Shown here: one piece after another, positions 2,082-60,676 of the stretch
How the letters are laid out: each line of letters begins with the position of its first letter
Position numbering within the stretch: position 1 is the first letter of the stretch
From: Haloarcula pelagica
GTDB taxonomy: Archaea; Halobacteriota; Halobacteria; Halobacteriales; Haloarculaceae
Reading direction: 5' to 3'
NCBI RefSeq assembly: GCF_030127105.1
Contig: NZ_CP126164.1
Coordinates: forward strand, 1-64,000
DNA length: 64,000 nucleotides
Notes under the pieces: generated by a model
Databases searched by the model: none
What the model was told of the DNA's origin: nothing
The model's input: only the letters and a program-made list of their open reading frames with translations
Made by a program: the position numbers and the translations under genes

Positions 2082-3335
<1,254 letters not shown>

Positions 3336-10748: not shown

Positions 10749-11183
10749 CTATCGATCGCGCTGATTCAAAACAATCTCCTCCAGATCGTCATGATCTAGA
10801 CCGGCCTTGATGAGACCTTCAAAGAAGTGTTTGTGCTTCTCGATTTCTTCTTTACCGTCAATCATCAGCTGGCCATTGATTTTCCGGTATCGGTCGTCGA
10901 CTTTCTCCACCAGATCCTCTGAGATGTAAATCGCAGTATGCGGCCTCGACCGTCTGGTATCAGTATCCGATGAGTCAGAATCACCGGTGTCCTGGCTGTC
11001 CGATTCACTGTTTTTCGCCGAGGTCTCGGCTGTCTCCTCTGCTTTTACCCCTTCTGTATTATCCAGGTTATCCGTAGTATCCGAAGACGCTGTCTCGTTG
11101 CCCGTCGGTGAGTCCGCATCCTCGTCACTGCTCTGAGGTTTATGCTCCTCAAACCGGTCCATCAGTGGGTTATCGTCGCTCAT
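10749..11183 (-). CDS. Partition partner of ParA with C-terminal ribbon-helix-helix-like domain
   Basis: A 144-residue protein. Residues about 8-85 are Asp/Ser/Glu/Thr-rich and disordered, followed by a compact C-terminal part with TAIYISEDLVEKVDDRYRK and a second helix EKHKHFFEGLIKAGL. A strand then two helices is the pattern of ribbon-helix-helix DNA-binding proteins. Its ATG (11183) overlaps the stop of parA, and 9-bp phased repeats lie upstream of parA. By analogy with delta-omega and other ParA/small centromere-binding-protein systems, I infer that it binds these repeats and recruits ParA. It is not a canonical ParB. Confidence 0.7.
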   Translation of the reverse strand: MSDDNPLMDRFEEHKPQSSDEDADSPTGNETASSDTTDNLDNTEGVKAEETAETSAKNSESDSQDTGDSDSSDTDTRRSRPHTAIYISEDLVEKVDDRYRKINGQLMIDGKEEIEKHKHFFEGLIKAGLDHDDLEEIVLNQRDR

Positions 11184-11989
11184 TGGTACTGCTCCAGGTG
11201 ATCTGCGATACGGTCGTACGCTGCGATCACATCCTGCTGAGGACCGTCGTCCCATGGGTATCCAGCATCTTCAGGGTCGTATTCGAATATCGATGTCCGA
11301 TATTCTATCGCGTGTTCCACGACGTCGCGTTCAGGAACATCGAAAACATGGTCTTCACCAAAGGTCTCGAAGAACCACTCCTCGACTTCACGAGCTACAT
11401 TACCTTGAGACGGAACTTCATTGAGTACGGCTCCAAGCGTCGTGATACTGTACTGGTCGAATTTCGCCTCGATTGTATCTATCTCCTCGAACAGTATCTC
11501 GAGACTGTCTCGCGCAATCGTATTGGGATGACTCGGGAACAGGACGTTTTCAGCTGCTATTAGTGCCCCATCAGAGAGTGGGCCGAGGTTCGGCGGACTG
11601 TCAATGACGATGAAATCGTAATCTGTGTCCAGCCTATCTACGGCCTTTCGCAAAGATTCGTGACCACCAGCTTCGGAGTACAGGTATTTTTCGAGGTTGA
11701 AGTTCTTGAGGTGGCTTGGGACGATATCGAACTCTGCAGAGTCGATAATTAACCGGTCTAAATCATCATACGTGAGATCGCCCATATCGCTGAGAACGTC
11801 AAACAACGCAAACTCACCAGACCGGTACTCCTCTCGAAGCCCCATTTTGAGTGTTGCACCCCCTTGTGGGTCAGCGTCGACGACGAGAACATCGTGGCCT
11901 CTGGCATTCAGCGCCCCTGCGGTATTGATACTGGTAGTCGACTTTCCAACGCCGCCCTTCTGCATTGATATTGTAACTCTAAACGTCAT
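11180..11989 (-). CDS. parA: ParA family partition ATPase
   Basis: A 269-residue ParA/Soj-type deviant Walker ATPase. The Walker A box KGGVGKSTT is at residues 11-19, the Asp-rich Walker A' region reads VLVVDADPQGGAT, and Walker B is DFIVIDSPPNLGPLS. It segregates low-copy replicons by forming ATP-dependent gradients over the nucleoid, working with a centromere-binding partner. That partner gene overlaps its stop codon by 4 bases. The start ATG at 11989 lies about 20 bases from the first block of 9-bp repeats, so its own promoter is probably covered by the partition complex and autoregulated. Confidence 0.92.
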   Translation of the reverse strand: MTFRVTISMQKGGVGKSTTSINTAGALNARGHDVLVVDADPQGGATLKMGLREEYRSGEFALFDVLSDMGDLTYDDLDRLIIDSAEFDIVPSHLKNFNLEKYLYSEAGGHESLRKAVDRLDTDYDFIVIDSPPNLGPLSDGALIAAENVLFPSHPNTIARDSLEILFEEIDTIEAKFDQYSITTLGAVLNEVPSQGNVAREVEEWFFETFGEDHVFDVPERDVVEHAIEYRTSIFEYDPEDAGYPWDDGPQQDVIAAYDRIADHLEQYQ

Positions 11990-12000
11990 GGATTGTTTGT

Positions 12001-12304
12001 ATTAGTCATATTATCCGGATTATCCGTCTTATCCGACCTATCCGTGTTATCTACATTATCTCTCTGGAACAGGCAATCTTATAAAATTATGTCAGACACA
12101 GTATTTACGGAGTGTTTAGCGTTCTAAGGGAACTTTGGCCATACCGGATTATACGGATAATACGTATGTGGGAGGACTCTGTAGCAGGGTGAAATACGGA
12201 TAATCCATATAATCCAAGTAATCAAGATAATCCGTCAGCCCACATGTCGAGGACAACTTGGATTATCTGGATAATCCGTATAATCTAGTTAACATCAGTA
12301 ATCC
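12001..12304. repeat. 9-bp phased repeats, probable centromere and parA operator
   Basis: Four blocks of 9-bp direct repeats share a TTATCC / GGATAA core. Block A, 12010-12063, has six consecutive units (consensus NTTATCCGN), possibly seven with 12001-12009. A pair occupies 12145-12162 (CGGATTATA, CGGATAATA). Block B, 12198-12233, has four units ending in AATCC. Block C, 12260-12304, has five units, of which the fourth is degenerate. Blocks differ in orientation. Regular 9-bp phasing next to parA is typical of binding arrays for small ribbon-helix-helix centromere proteins. It could also serve as replication iterons, but no initiator gene is visible nearby. Confidence 0.8.
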
Positions 12305-12357
12305 CGATTTCTGCGGATTCTCCGTACAATCCACTTGAGGCCCAAAAAAGACGGAAT

Positions 12358-13578
12358 CTACTCAGTAGAATCTTGATTATCCGATTGTGGGGCTTCGTCG
12401 AAGGCTTCAGCAGCGAGATCAGCGAGCTCTCCGGCCTCGATATGTGAGTAGTGCTCACGGACAACCTGTTCAGAGTTGTCCAGCAGTCGGGCAGCTTCAC
12501 CATGTCCGTATTTTCGGACCATTACTTCGCCAGCCGCTCGACGAGCCCCATGGGGAGCGAGATATCCGTGGGTGTCATCGTCTAATTCAATTCCCGCTCG
12601 GTCAGTGAGACGCTTCATGACGTCGCGACCGCCATGCGTCGTCATCGCGGAGGGTGCTACCCCGTACTCGGCACAGAGTTCTATCATCGAGATTTCACCT
12701 TCAGAGACCTTTTCAAGGCGTATTTCTTCTATTTCTTCGGTATCATACCCTCTCTCCAGTAGACTGTTAGAGAAGTCCTGAACGAGCGTTGAATACGAGA
12801 GCGAAGGGAAGACAGGCCAATCATCAGATGGTGGGTCCAGAATCTGATTCAACCGTTCCAGAGACGGTACAGCGGGTTCTGGAAGTGCTCGGTCATCCCA
12901 CCGCTGCTTCTTCGCGAGCACCTGGAGACTGTTATCCGCAAGCGAAAGGTCGGACCATCGTAGGCCATCTCGACCACGGCGGCCGTCGTCGACGTCAGCA
13001 AGAATCTCGGCACCGCGAACACCGGAAAAGCAGAGCAAATTGACCAATGCTCGGTTTCGGCCGTCTTTGATCGCGGCTTTGCGGTCATCACTGATAGCGT
13101 CGATCGCGTTGTGCGCCTGCTCGTCGACATATGAGAGCAACTGTTCCCGGTGCTCACGGGACCACGCCTGTTGCTCACCCGATTTTCGTCCCGTATCTTC
13201 TGGCAGCGGTTCCTTGGCCCGAGTGCGCTGGGCGGGGTTCTCTGCAAGGTGTCCTTCCCGAGCTGCCCATCCCAAGAAGCCCGAAACGTGCGCGTAGTAG
13301 TTCTTGATGGTACCTTCAGCCCAGCCCTGACGAGAGAGGTATCGAGCGTACTCACGAAGGTCAGCGACAGATAGCTCCTCAAAAGTTGCAGGAGAACCGG
13401 GCCGGCCAGAGAGAAACTCCAGGAATCGGTCTATCTCACGCTCCGCGTGTCGTCGATAGTTTCCACTCTCGCCGTCCCGCCCCTTTCCCTTGTCGAGCAA
13501 ATAGTCCTCGACCACGGAGGAGATGGCGATGGCACCCGTCTCAGTATCGCCGGACCCCGTGTTTGGCTTAGATGGCAT
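12358..13578 (-). CDS. Tyrosine recombinase (XerC/D-like integrase/resolvase)
   Basis: 406 residues. An N-terminal SAM-like domain (about 15-125) contains DRFLEFLSGRP and GTIKNYYAHVSGFLGWA. The catalytic domain (about 150-390) contains FSGVRGAEIL with the first Arg (near 187), LAKKQR with the Lys, HGARRAAG with the His-x-x-Arg box (near 343) and REHYSHIEAG with the nucleophilic Tyr (near 376). Such enzymes resolve plasmid dimers or integrate elements. It sits between the centromere-like repeats and a 13-6-13 inverted repeat at 13717-13748, which has the geometry of a core site. A segment of about 40 residues before the His-x-x-Arg box is longer than in bacterial Xer proteins. Confidence 0.88.
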   Translation of the reverse strand: MPSKPNTGSGDTETGAIAISSVVEDYLLDKGKGRDGESGNYRRHAEREIDRFLEFLSGRPGSPATFEELSVADLREYARYLSRQGWAEGTIKNYYAHVSGFLGWAAREGHLAENPAQRTRAKEPLPEDTGRKSGEQQAWSREHREQLLSYVDEQAHNAIDAISDDRKAAIKDGRNRALVNLLCFSGVRGAEILADVDDGRRGRDGLRWSDLSLADNSLQVLAKKQRWDDRALPEPAVPSLERLNQILDPPSDDWPVFPSLSYSTLVQDFSNSLLERGYDTEEIEEIRLEKVSEGEISMIELCAEYGVAPSAMTTHGGRDVMKRLTDRAGIELDDDTHGYLAPHGARRAAGEVMVRKYGHGEAARLLDNSEQVVREHYSHIEAGELADLAAEAFDEAPQSDNQDSTE

Positions 13579-56659: not shown

Positions 56660-59600
56660 CTACTCCCCCACCGCCTCTTCCACAATCTCGATTTCCTCCT
56701 CGGTCAGCCCGTACAGCTCGTAGACGATTTCGTCAATCAACTCGTCCGTCCGCTCGATTTTCCCTTCCAGCTCGTCGGCTCGCTCCTTCGTCTCGATGTA
56801 ACTCTCCAGCCCGTCCCGAACCTCGTCGACAGCGGGCAGCGTCAGCTGCCGCAGCCGGTCGACCAGCGAGTATGTAATCGTCGCCGTCTCGCGAAACTCA
56901 CCAAACCCACCGGCTTTATCGACGGCCACCGGGACGAACGCCTCAATCAGGTCAGCCTCGGTCTCGGAGAGGTCCGTAATCCGCAGCGCCGGCAGTGGCT
57001 CGGTCTCGGTATACGCATCTTTGCCCTTTTTACTTGGGTCCGGTTTGTAGCGTGCGGTGAGCCGAATCTCGACCGTCGTGTCGGACTCACGATTGACCAC
57101 GGCCTCACCCACTTTGAGATTGGGCCTCTCTTCAACGGTCTGTTGAAGGACTGTGTCGGCGGAACCTTTGGGCGGTTGAGTAAGTCCAATGTCAGCAAGG
57201 GTTGGACCGTCAGAATAAGAGCCGAAGTGGTCCCGAAGCGAGAGATTCAGGTTACTTAATTTATTCTGAAGCCGAAGCATTTCATCTGCCAAATTTTCCA
57301 TAGTTGCTCGTGCTGCTGAATCTGCTCCCCCTTCAATAGCAAGAGTGGTCAGTATGGAATCTATATCCAGTTCCCCGCTTATGCATTGCCTGACAGAGCT
57401 TTCAGACACTTCTGAGCGTGCATCAGATTGCCGGATATTGGGGAATGGTAGCTCACGTAGCCCAGTTAGCGTTACCTGACGAAAATCGTCTTTTGAAGCA
57501 GAAAGCTCGACGTTAAAGTGCCACCAAGAAAGGAGAGTACTGTTCAATATAGTTAGTAAAAACTTCTCAGAGAACTCCTCAGATGTGAAAATATACACGT
57601 CTTTCTTAGAGACAAAAAACTCAGATGAATACGTTCCAAGTAACCGGTCATCCCGACTGACTAATCTTCGAACCAATAATCGGCTGCCCTCAAATACTTC
57701 TTTTGACGGAGGACACTCATCCAATAGCTCCCAATCTGCAGAGTCATTGGCACCAATAGTCTCATATCTCGAATAACTGTTCGTACAGATTGGTGTGTCT
57801 GCAGTTTCACTCTCGATAGCCTCATCCGTAACAAGGACACCCCTTGTTGATTCTGTGTGCTCTCCTAGAGTGTCTTGTCCTCCAATTCGGTTGTAGAGCG
57901 AGATAAAATCTCTACTGAGCGCGATAAAACCGATTTCTTGCCACTGCTTCACTGGAACGCCAGTGAGTTCGAGATTAGCAACTGCCACCTCAGGATCTAA
58001 ACGTGTGCCACTTAAATTTGCGATATCACACTCGTCTCCTTCACGACCTTTTTGCCAAACAAAGATACCCGTATCCACGTATGCATCTTCGAAAACATCG
58101 TATGGTAAATTGACCAGCGTCTGCAGCGCGCCATCGGATAACAAAAAGTCCCTGACCGAATCATAATCCGGACCCGTTTCCCATGATGTTGGGGCGATGA
58201 AAGAAAGATACCCACCTTCCCGCGTGAAATCGCCAGCCCTCACGATGAACTGAGAATAGAGGTCATTTGTAACGTCAGGATTGATACAATCCGCAACCTC
58301 ACCTGGTATTTTTGCGTACGGTGGATTTCCGGCTACTGCATCAAACCCAGCACCCTCTAACCGCTCCCCACCCGACCCGAAGAACACCTCGGGGAACTCC
58401 AGCTCCCAATGGAAGAAATCCACCTCTTCAGCGGTCGCCTGCGCGCTTTTGAACCAATCCTCTTCCTGAATCTCAGCCCACTCCTCACCGTCCTCGATCG
58501 CACCCGCCATCTCTTCATAGACGCCCTCGGGTACGTCCAGCCCGAACTCTTCGGCGGTGTGCACGTTCGCAATCTCGAAGAGTCTCTTATATAGCGGGTC
58601 ATCGCGAATCTTGTCGTAGATCGCCTCCATCGACTTGATATCCTCGTAGTTCTCATTGTCGATGGCCAGCAGGTCTTCCATCAACTCCATCACGTGCTCT
58701 AATGTCTGCTGTCGAGCTTGGGCAAATACCTGTGTCAGCGTAATCTGCCCTTCCAAATTATTCTCATCGCTCAGCACCTCCGAGATATCCGACCCCACCA
58801 GCGAGTTCCCAGCCTTCAGGTGGTGATCCAGGAACGCCAGCGGCTTGTCGGCCGCCAGCGTCTCCAGCCACATCGAGAGCTTCCCCAGCTCGACGGCCAT
58901 CCCGTTGACGTCGACGCCGTAGATACACTCCTTCGCGATGGTCCGTCGAATCTCCTGCTCGTCACGACCCTGTTCCTCCTGCTCGCGGACGACCTCCATC
59001 ACCTGCTCGGTGAGATACGCCGTCGCACTGGTCAGGAAATGCGCCGAGCCCATAGCCGGGTCGAGTATCTTTAGCTCCTGGACCTGTCTGTAGAACCGGC
59101 CGAAGTAGCCCTGGTCACTGGGCTCCAGCCCGTCGGCCTCCAGTTCCGCGCGAATATCGTCTAGCAGCGGGTCGATGGTCTCCTCAACAATATACGACAC
59201 CACGTAGTCGGGCGTGTAGTACGCACCCGTAGCCTTGCGCTCGCCGTCGTCGTTGACCACGTATAGCTCGCCTTTCTCAACGTCCTCGACAGCGTCGGCG
59301 ACGCTCACCTCCGTCGCTGGCTTCCAGACCTGGCCGCCATCCTCAGCGACCGCGGCGTATGGTTCGGAGGCAATGCGGAACTCGTGTTCTAATAGCCCTT
59401 CGTAGATACTGCCAAGGTGCCGGGTGTCCAAATCGGCGTAGTCGGCCAGGACGGGGTCCTCGTCGTCGCCTTCGGTTGTCCCGAGCCGGTGAATCACCTC
59501 GGCGATATACCGGTTAGATACTTCGTTTTCCGCCAGGAACTGATTGCTTTCCTCATCGAACAGCCCACCGTTGTAGGGCGGTATCCCCAGTTCCTCGTCG

Positions 59601-60676
59601 CCTTCGTCGACGAGCTCGAAGAGGTTCTCCAGTCGCGCCCAGAATTGGGTCGACCGGTCGCTGTAATCCTCGTAGATATCGCCCGACGTGATGTCCTCGT
59701 GAATCTCAGCACGGAGCTCGTCAAGGCTGAATAGCTCCTCGTATTCGTCCTGAGCTTCGGGGTCGTCGGGATGAATGAGCCCACGAGACTCCGCGTAGAG
59801 AACAAACATCAACCGATACAGCAACACGAGCGACTGCTCTTTCAGCTCGGCTCGGGCTGCTTCGTCCTCCGGGTCGATATCGAGGTCGTTCGTCTCGATG
59901 AACCCCTCTCCCAGCACGCGAAGCGCAGTGAAGACGTTATCTTGGAGGTCTTCACCTAACTCTTGGGCCGCCGTCTCCGATTCGTTCCAGACCGTATCCA
60001 GAAAGGTCGTTCCGCCAGTCTCGCGAAATGCTGCCGGTCGGAAGAACGCGTAGAAATATTTGAACCGCTCCAGATCGCCACTGGCCAGCAGTTCGGGTAG
60101 GTCGACCTCGTAATAAATCTCTGTGGCGTAGTCTTTCGTCCCGTAGAGACGCCACTTCTTGCCGTCAGTGAGAATCCCCCACTGGAGCCGTTCGGGTGTT
60201 TTCTCCAGATAGTACTTAATCTGGTGAGATGCGTCGCGGTAGGAACGGTGTTCGTCGAACTTTTTTGTGAAATCTGCGCCCCACTGCTTGGCTTCGAGGA
60301 CGGCCGACGCCATGCCGTACATAGCATCATCGTTCCCGTCCAGCGCCCGCTTAGCCGCCTCTCGGCGCGTCTCGTCGGAGTCGAACAGCAGTCGGTCATT
60401 GTAGCCCTTTCCACCAGGGACAGTCGTCTCCGATTGCCTCCCAAACCCGAGGATATCGAGTACTTCGTCGATCCACGAACTCAACAGCTCGTCTTCTTTG
60501 TAGCCGGGAAGCAGGTCACCCTCCAGTTCCCAGAGTTCTTGGAGGTCTTCGAAGGCCTCCGTAGCTTCGGCGTTACACTCCCACTCCTCGAGATCATCAA
60601 TTCGCTCATCGAGATAGTACCCCGAAAAGAGACTCGAATTTCGGTAAGGCGTTGAGCTAAGCGTCGCTTGGCTCAT
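56660..60676 (-). CDS. Eco57I-type DNA methyltransferase with N-terminal nuclease-like domain
   Basis: 1338 residues. Near residue 125, MASAVLEAKQWG followed by SHQIKYYLEKTPERLQWGIL looks like the Glu-x-Lys and Gln of a PD-(D/E)XK domain, as in type IIG enzymes. The adenine methyltransferase domain has ATGAYYTPDYVVSYIVEETI, motif I ILDPAMGSAHFLTSA (near 540), YGVDVNGMAVELGKLSMWLE and catalytic motif IV AGNPPYAK (near 780). The C-terminal 450 residues contain a target-recognition-like region and a helical end. It could modify and cut DNA alone. It leads a minus-strand operon and is divergent from the DUF499 ATPase. Confidence 0.88.
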   Translation of the reverse strand: MSQATLSSTPYRNSSLFSGYYLDERIDDLEEWECNAEATEAFEDLQELWELEGDLLPGYKEDELLSSWIDEVLDILGFGRQSETTVPGGKGYNDRLLFDSDETRREAAKRALDGNDDAMYGMASAVLEAKQWGADFTKKFDEHRSYRDASHQIKYYLEKTPERLQWGILTDGKKWRLYGTKDYATEIYYEVDLPELLASGDLERFKYFYAFFRPAAFRETGGTTFLDTVWNESETAAQELGEDLQDNVFTALRVLGEGFIETNDLDIDPEDEAARAELKEQSLVLLYRLMFVLYAESRGLIHPDDPEAQDEYEELFSLDELRAEIHEDITSGDIYEDYSDRSTQFWARLENLFELVDEGDEELGIPPYNGGLFDEESNQFLAENEVSNRYIAEVIHRLGTTEGDDEDPVLADYADLDTRHLGSIYEGLLEHEFRIASEPYAAVAEDGGQVWKPATEVSVADAVEDVEKGELYVVNDDGERKATGAYYTPDYVVSYIVEETIDPLLDDIRAELEADGLEPSDQGYFGRFYRQVQELKILDPAMGSAHFLTSATAYLTEQVMEVVREQEEQGRDEQEIRRTIAKECIYGVDVNGMAVELGKLSMWLETLAADKPLAFLDHHLKAGNSLVGSDISEVLSDENNLEGQITLTQVFAQARQQTLEHVMELMEDLLAIDNENYEDIKSMEAIYDKIRDDPLYKRLFEIANVHTAEEFGLDVPEGVYEEMAGAIEDGEEWAEIQEEDWFKSAQATAEEVDFFHWELEFPEVFFGSGGERLEGAGFDAVAGNPPYAKIPGEVADCINPDVTNDLYSQFIVRAGDFTREGGYLSFIAPTSWETGPDYDSVRDFLLSDGALQTLVNLPYDVFEDAYVDTGIFVWQKGREGDECDIANLSGTRLDPEVAVANLELTGVPVKQWQEIGFIALSRDFISLYNRIGGQDTLGEHTESTRGVLVTDEAIESETADTPICTNSYSRYETIGANDSADWELLDECPPSKEVFEGSRLLVRRLVSRDDRLLGTYSSEFFVSKKDVYIFTSEEFSEKFLLTILNSTLLSWWHFNVELSASKDDFRQVTLTGLRELPFPNIRQSDARSEVSESSVRQCISGELDIDSILTTLAIEGGADSAARATMENLADEMLRLQNKLSNLNLSLRDHFGSYSDGPTLADIGLTQPPKGSADTVLQQTVEERPNLKVGEAVVNRESDTTVEIRLTARYKPDPSKKGKDAYTETEPLPALRITDLSETEADLIEAFVPVAVDKAGGFGEFRETATITYSLVDRLRQLTLPAVDEVRDGLESYIETKERADELEGKIERTDELIDEIVYELYGLTEEEIEIVEEAVGE

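Follow-up and report, generated by a model that had tools for sequence, protein, structure and literature searches.

The window, which is the whole 64,000-nucleotide stretch analyzed here (bases 1-64000 of contig C4 in a 4.46-Mb genome of 4 contigs), contains a par locus. In this locus, parA and a small partner gene lie on the minus strand and overlap by one base, forming an operon (Table 1). The product of parA is a deviant Walker ATPase of the ParA type, as in type I ParABS systems. It carries the KGGVGKST motif and matches AAA_31, and its nearest solved structures are those of Soj/ParA proteins (E about 1e-20). The small gene adjoining parA is conserved and encodes a putative centromere-binding protein. 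A tyrosine recombinase gene adjoins the par locus, and an integrase gene also adjoins par in two related loci (L041 and L042). The recombinase probably has a maintenance role (dimer resolution or integration) and lies outside the par core.

Contig C4 is 191 kb long and repeats itself after 147,017 bp. The contig start reappears at 147018, as does the par locus at 158195, so that C4 is best interpreted as a ~147-kb circular plasmid whose assembly overlaps itself by 44 kb. When the genome was searched with a profile of the partner domain, no other par locus of the same kind was detected. The same plasmid encodes an Eco57I-like restriction-modification methylase (1338 aa, 56660-60676; Pfam 2.1e-24). 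A TnpB-like protein with OrfB_IS605 and Cas12f1-like TNB domains is encoded at 2082-3335.

Table 1. Coordinates of the features of the par locus and its surroundings in the window.
Feature	Position	Strand	Description
Putative DNA-binding domain of partner (C-terminal)	10752..10961	-	Extended HTAIYIS segment, then helices 15-34, 42-53 and 60-69 (domain numbering)
parB-like partner	10749..11183	-	144 aa; N-terminal MDRF motif, acidic Ser/Thr/Asp-rich disordered linker, C-terminal domain of ~70 aa
Intragenic 9-bp array in parB linker	11053..11085		Three phased units, in frame SDT-TDN-LDN-T
parA	11183..11989	-	269-aa Walker-type ATPase (KGGVGKST), ParA/Soj family; Pfam AAA_31 6.9e-35
Upstream array block 1	11996..12064		Six or more units, between promoter-like element and parA start
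Promoter-like element	12080..12096	-	GTGTCTGACATAATTTTAT (TCTGAC plus TTTAT); conserved, between array blocks
Upstream array block 2	12143..12166		Two to three units
Upstream array block 3	12192..12236		Five phased units
Upstream array block 4	12257..12307		Four to five units, one degenerate
Degenerate units running into 3' end of recombinase gene	12309..12385		Matrix (PWM) hits at 12318, 12321, 12371 and 12377
Tyrosine recombinase/integrase	12358..13578	-	406 aa; Pfam Phage_int_SAM_5 9.9e-8; adjoins par locus

The preliminary description of this DNA proposed that a ParA and a partner with a disordered acidic N terminus act together with a site of phased repeats, and our analysis supports this arrangement. 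The partner matches PHROG 26668 (function unknown) at 3.9e-8. We found no named family for it in Pfam or NCBIfam, and PDB sequence profiles also gave none. We grouped related parA genes into 25 clusters at 80% identity, and an Arg-Phe/Leu/Tyr motif was found at the N terminus of the partner in 22 of them. The partner had also been called ribbon-helix-helix (RHH)-like. Structure prediction gave a confident fold for the C-terminal domain, and no match confirmed RHH. Based on 8 sequences, AlphaFold yielded a poor model (pLDDT 71); based on 11 sequences, AlphaFold2 yielded a good one (pLDDT 88.3, pTM 0.70) in which an extended segment is followed by helix-helix-helix. RHH proteins have a sequence pattern of a hydrophobic strand, then Pro/Ser-Glu, and then a helix. 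The C-terminal pattern of the partner resembles this one, and we regard an RHH fold as likely and the assignment as putative. Searches using PDB, Foldseek, VIA-align, and Pfam found no convincing relative of the domain, a result compatible with an RHH fold. The profile search of PDB sequences matched neither SegB nor any other RHH protein, and divergence may mask homology in such a search.

Upstream of parA, blocks of TTATCC/GGATAA repeats in a 9-bp phase are present wherever they had been reported. Six units lie at 12010-12063, the last three of which are degenerate (CTATCC, TTATCT, and TTATCT). They are followed by two units at 12145-12162, four at 12198-12233, and five, one of them degenerate, at 12260-12304. 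A matrix refined on the upstream DNA of seven family members gave the repeat unit TNCGGATWA, i.e., GGATWATCC. Units appear in both orientations because this ideal repeat is nearly palindromic. Thus, the mixed unit orientation noted previously is largely an effect of scoring a near-palindromic unit on both strands, and true mixing is unsupported. Both neighboring genes have their coding ends overlapped by the array. On the recombinase side, the final codons (SDNQDS; 12371-12385) match one or two array units.

We measured the phasing against dinucleotide shuffles. Self-similarity of the upstream DNA at lag 9 reached a z of 8.1 over 400 bp and 9.0 over 450 bp. Lag 18 gave a z of about 6, and lags 7, 8, 10, and 11 fell between -0.9 and 0.5. 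Five runs of at least three phased units occur in the real intergenic DNA versus zero in any shuffle. When we searched the 4.46-Mb genome for a two-unit pattern with up to one mismatch, all matches lay in the par locus except for one site on the same plasmid. This lone match, TTCGGATTATCCGGATAA, is a perfect two-unit site at G000:C4:130088-130105 (L136, 1589-1606) inside an unrelated open reading frame (YYPDNPK). We rejected it as a second centromere, since the site is isolated and without an array; it could be a secondary site for the partner or a chance match.

To place the locus among its relatives, we searched with the partner only and found matches in 161 of 391 Halobacteria genomes at an E value of ≤0.01, of which the low-scoring ones may reflect linker composition. 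parA was immediately upstream of the partner in all 60 of the 60 regions fetched from this search. In a profile search of a phylum-wide sample, all of the matches listed were in the window's own order. Scans of viral contigs with seven queries gave mostly nothing, and one query gave three loci. The preliminary description had staked its reading on the conservation of the repeats beside related parA genes, and they are conserved there. Taking 450 bp as upstream DNA (which includes coding DNA in some loci), we found a lag-9 z of >1.64 in 16 of the 25 clusters. The lag-9 z averaged 3.2 over the 25 clusters, and the averages for lags 7, 8, 10, and 11 ranged from -0.23 to 0.14. In about nine clusters (e.g., L038, L039, L048, and L055), the upstream z did not exceed 1.64, and some of these have mainly coding arrays.

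The 9-bp phasing is retained at ParA identities as low as ~35%, whereas the core differs: GGATAA in the window, GAACCCGTA in L017 and L020, TTACG in L013-L015, and AACGA in L031-L037 and L045. A conserved period with a variable core is as expected of a binder and a site that coevolve. In 15 of the 25 parA clusters, the array blocks have a promoter-like element, TCTGACGTAGATTTAT, between them; it was found in 1 of 96 control pieces. The AACGA array also marks a family of 42 loci (the L045 family, e.g., L031-L034 and L045-L047) in which ParA is >90% identical across many genera. Its hosts are plasmids and contigs of 2-4 Mb, and it is apparently either a very mobile or a strongly conserved par cassette.

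The conserved phased array provides a cis-acting repeat site beside the operon, as in type I ParABS systems, and is a candidate centromere. We also considered that the repeats could be replication iterons or a transcription factor operator and that ParA and its partner act elsewhere. Iteron arrays are also found at plasmid origins, and the array in the window overlaps the parA promoter region. However, the array travels with the parA-partner pair and not with an initiator gene: orc1/cdc6 is near the Haloarcula marismortui locus L040, and there is none among the flanking genes shown for L041-L043. Moreover, the repeat core varies with the par cluster, and the array extends into the partner gene (see below). 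We consider this explanation quite improbable.

The repeats extend beyond parA. Within the partner coding sequence lie three phased units (hits 11053-11079) that the preliminary description did not report. We detected them with a matrix that was trained on upstream DNA only. The matrix hits are at 11053, 11062, and 11071 on the plus strand and at 11059 and 11068 on the minus strand; the genome-wide pattern search hit 11059-11085. The codons involved, TCGGATACT ACGGATAAC CTGGATAAT, encode SDT TDN LDN of the linker. In the 64-kb window, runs of at least three phased units were found six times. One of these runs is in the partner linker, and the other five are within the region upstream of parA or at its margin. 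As a null model, we permuted synonymous codons, which preserves the protein and the codon usage. Against this null, the linker score of the window partner had a P value of 0.0025, the score of its whole gene one of 0.008, and a run of at least three units one of 0.012. The parA gene of the window served as a negative control and gave a P value of 0.73. A cruder test of 10-mer sharing gave a z of 0.5 for the three coding units of the window, which it is too weak to see. The coding array is weaker in a 90%-identical relative, L010 (P = 0.056).

Other relatives have longer coding arrays. The partner gene of L105 carries a six-unit in-frame run, CCGGATAGT CCGGATAGT ACGGACAAG TCGGATAAT ACGGATAAT GCGGATAAT, and runs of four units in L106, four in L107, and four to five in L108 were found as well. 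By synonymous-codon permutation, all four of these partner genes gave P values of ≤0.004. The same test found no array signal in the parA genes of L105-L108. The coding repeats bear the core of their own family, ACGGGTTCT in L017 and L016 and GAAACG in L027 and L045. Over the 25 clusters, which are related by descent and are not phylogenetically independent, the lag-9 signal of the partner gene exceeded that of codon permutation (P = 5e-4), and that of parA did not (P = 0.92). The partner genes also shared 10-mers with their own upstream DNA (median z of 1.34 over the 25 clusters, P = 1e-4), compared with 0.13 for parA and 0.30 for the upstream DNA of other clusters. Sharing between upstream DNA and parA was slightly above zero (P = 0.024); therefore, part of the sharing is a small compositional background. 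The upstream and coding DNA thus share a repeat beyond what the amino acid sequence needs.

These tests bear on the possibility that the tripeptide repeat is selected at the protein level only, as an acidic linker in a salt-in cytoplasm, and that the DNA period merely follows. The linkers are indeed acidic and Ser/Thr rich, and three-residue repeats automatically yield a 9-bp period. However, codon permutation preserves the protein and loses the signal, and the 10-mers of a partner gene recur upstream in its own locus and not upstream in other clusters. A sister subfamily also has linkers that are just as acidic and lack 9-bp repeats. For these reasons, selection on the protein alone is highly improbable.

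The sister ParA-partner subfamily, whose partners start MPRGMDERFED, was present in 53 of the 391 genomes. Its arrays have an 8-bp period with the core AATCANNG (L101, L103, L116-L117, L119-L124, and L126-L135). All 20 of the 20 loci gave a lag-8 z of 6.0-9.7, with no lag-9 signal, and 19 of them have the promoter-like element between array blocks. The linkers of this subfamily are as acidic as those of the 9-bp loci and lack a coding repeat at either lag 8 or lag 9 (median z values of -0.1 and 0.03, respectively). An 8-bp unit cannot repeat in frame and a 9-bp unit can, so the 8-bp subfamily serves as a natural control. That its acidic linkers lack the repeat argues against acidic linkers alone creating the 9-bp periodicity. 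As far as we have seen, this subfamily is also undescribed.

The coding array was strongest in the families L017/L020/L021, L027/L035/L044, and L045-L047 (z of 4-7). No other 9-bp array of the locus is as clear in L016, L022, and L039, and the upstream array of L016 and L022 is slight or absent. Not every locus has a coding array: L040 and L052 lack one despite strong upstream arrays. This last observation suits an ordinary partition module in which only the upstream array is the centromere and the coding repeats are a nonfunctional relic of duplication or slippage, tolerated in a disordered linker. The coding units of the window are few (three) and degenerate, and array DNA is prone to unequal exchange, which also counts for a relic. 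Against this, distant clusters have coding arrays too, phased in frame and each with the core of its own cluster, and the coding array is the clearest one in the three loci named above. Unselected synonymous sites should decay, yet the codons still fit the unit. We regard a relic as rather unlikely.

Taken together, the sequence comparisons suggest that the locus is probably a type I (ParA-driven) plasmid partition module with the array as its centromere, with autoregulation, and with an array that continues in frame into the partner gene as linker-coding sequence. According to this model, dimers of the partner would bind and coat the 9-bp array (parS), which flanks and overlaps the parA promoter. 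The partner would load ParA and stimulate its ATPase through the arginine motif at the tip of the long disordered N-terminal arm. With the promoter embedded in the array, the partner would also repress its own operon. A 9-bp unit is three codons long, so the reading frame can pass through the centromere in tripeptide steps, and the array units would be translated as tripeptides (TDN, SET, TGD, and others) of the acidic disordered linker. A single DNA stretch would then double as extra centromere sites and linker-coding sequence. We give an even chance to the broader proposal of a translated centromere. Here, the 9-bp centromere would run through the partner gene and encode the disordered arm of its own binder, and the double use would keep the period a multiple of three. 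Some plasmids would have moved most of the centromere into coding sequence, and the 8-bp sisters, unable to do so in frame, would not have.

The preliminary description had suggested an archaeal counterpart of delta-omega partition. The functional likeness is reasonable: as in delta-omega of pSM19035 (PMC9499535), a small partner, here proposed to act as a dimer, and a ParA ATPase are found with tandem short repeats that overlap the par promoters. In delta-omega, each repeat takes one omega dimer, and ParA is activated only by four or more contiguous repeats; the repeats here number at least five to six. Membership in delta-omega did not hold. The delta-omega heptads are WATCACW and the units here are 9 bp. 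We found no pair enrichment of WATCACW and none in the array, and the lag-7 z was about -0.4. ParA matched Orf delta' (2oze) at an E value of 1.9e-4 versus 2e-20 for Soj. We rejected membership on the missing heptads and on a ParA closer to Soj/SegA than to delta'. An in-frame array within the partner gene is not described for delta-omega in the sections of PMC9499535 consulted.

The locus also resembles ParF-ParG-parH of TP228 (PMC7308502) in the C-terminal DNA-binding domain (putative here), the flexible N-terminal tail, the arginine finger-like motif, the short, degenerate boxes separated by spacers close to the operon, and the autoregulation proposed here. ParF-ParG-parH differs in its tetramer boxes and its ParF-type ATPase. 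We found no sequence similarity between the partner and ParG, and the tail of ParG is much shorter than that of the partner. SegA-SegB (PMC12284271 and PMC5120986) is likewise archaeal, with a ParA-type ATPase and a downstream gene overlapping segA. SegB is an RHH protein that binds upstream of its operon, and many SegB sites are intragenic. In contrast to the par array here, SegB sites are copies of a 13-bp palindrome, TCTAGASTCTAGA, dispersed over the chromosome without phased arrays. With up to three mismatches, TCTAGASTCTAGA had no match between 8960 and 18595 of the window, and its total was below chance. With no match near par, we rejected SegAB on the basis of the site.

The same gene pair as in the window is carried by the haloviruses phiCh1 (gp46) and phiH1 (gp53), where the partner is annotated as uncharacterized or hypothetical. 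These viral partners fall under PHROG 26668 and PHROG 29165, and the phiCh1 partner belongs to the former (function unknown). Neither function nor repeats are described for this pair in the database records or in the accessible part of the phiH1 paper. The notes on phiCh1 gp46 (L111, 3264-3662; L112, 3255-3656) pair it with the phiH1 HNH gene PhiH1_255. By position and sequence, the phiH1 counterpart of gp46 is gp53 (PhiH1_260), and the annotation is a probable mix-up of orthologs.

From its sequence features, we classify the par module as a variant of type I partition with an undescribed partner family. We found no description of the 9-bp arrays or of the partner family in the open literature, which does not include subscription papers; a 2016 review, in its available part, details SegAB and pNOB8 and no haloarchaeal system. 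As far as the open literature searched shows, a translated centromere is new. The segregation of haloarchaeal plasmids, megaplasmids, and plasmid-like viruses such as phiCh1 and phiH1 has hardly been studied, and the partition family that the par locus defines is widespread and testable and comprises a site, a partner, and a promoter. It is also a rare case in which the disordered region of a DNA-binding protein is apparently encoded by its own candidate binding-site array, with the 8-bp subfamily as the natural control. If true, this would connect the phasing of the repeats with the reading frame and with how the linker evolves, and it may provide centromere cassettes for stable haloarchaeal vectors.
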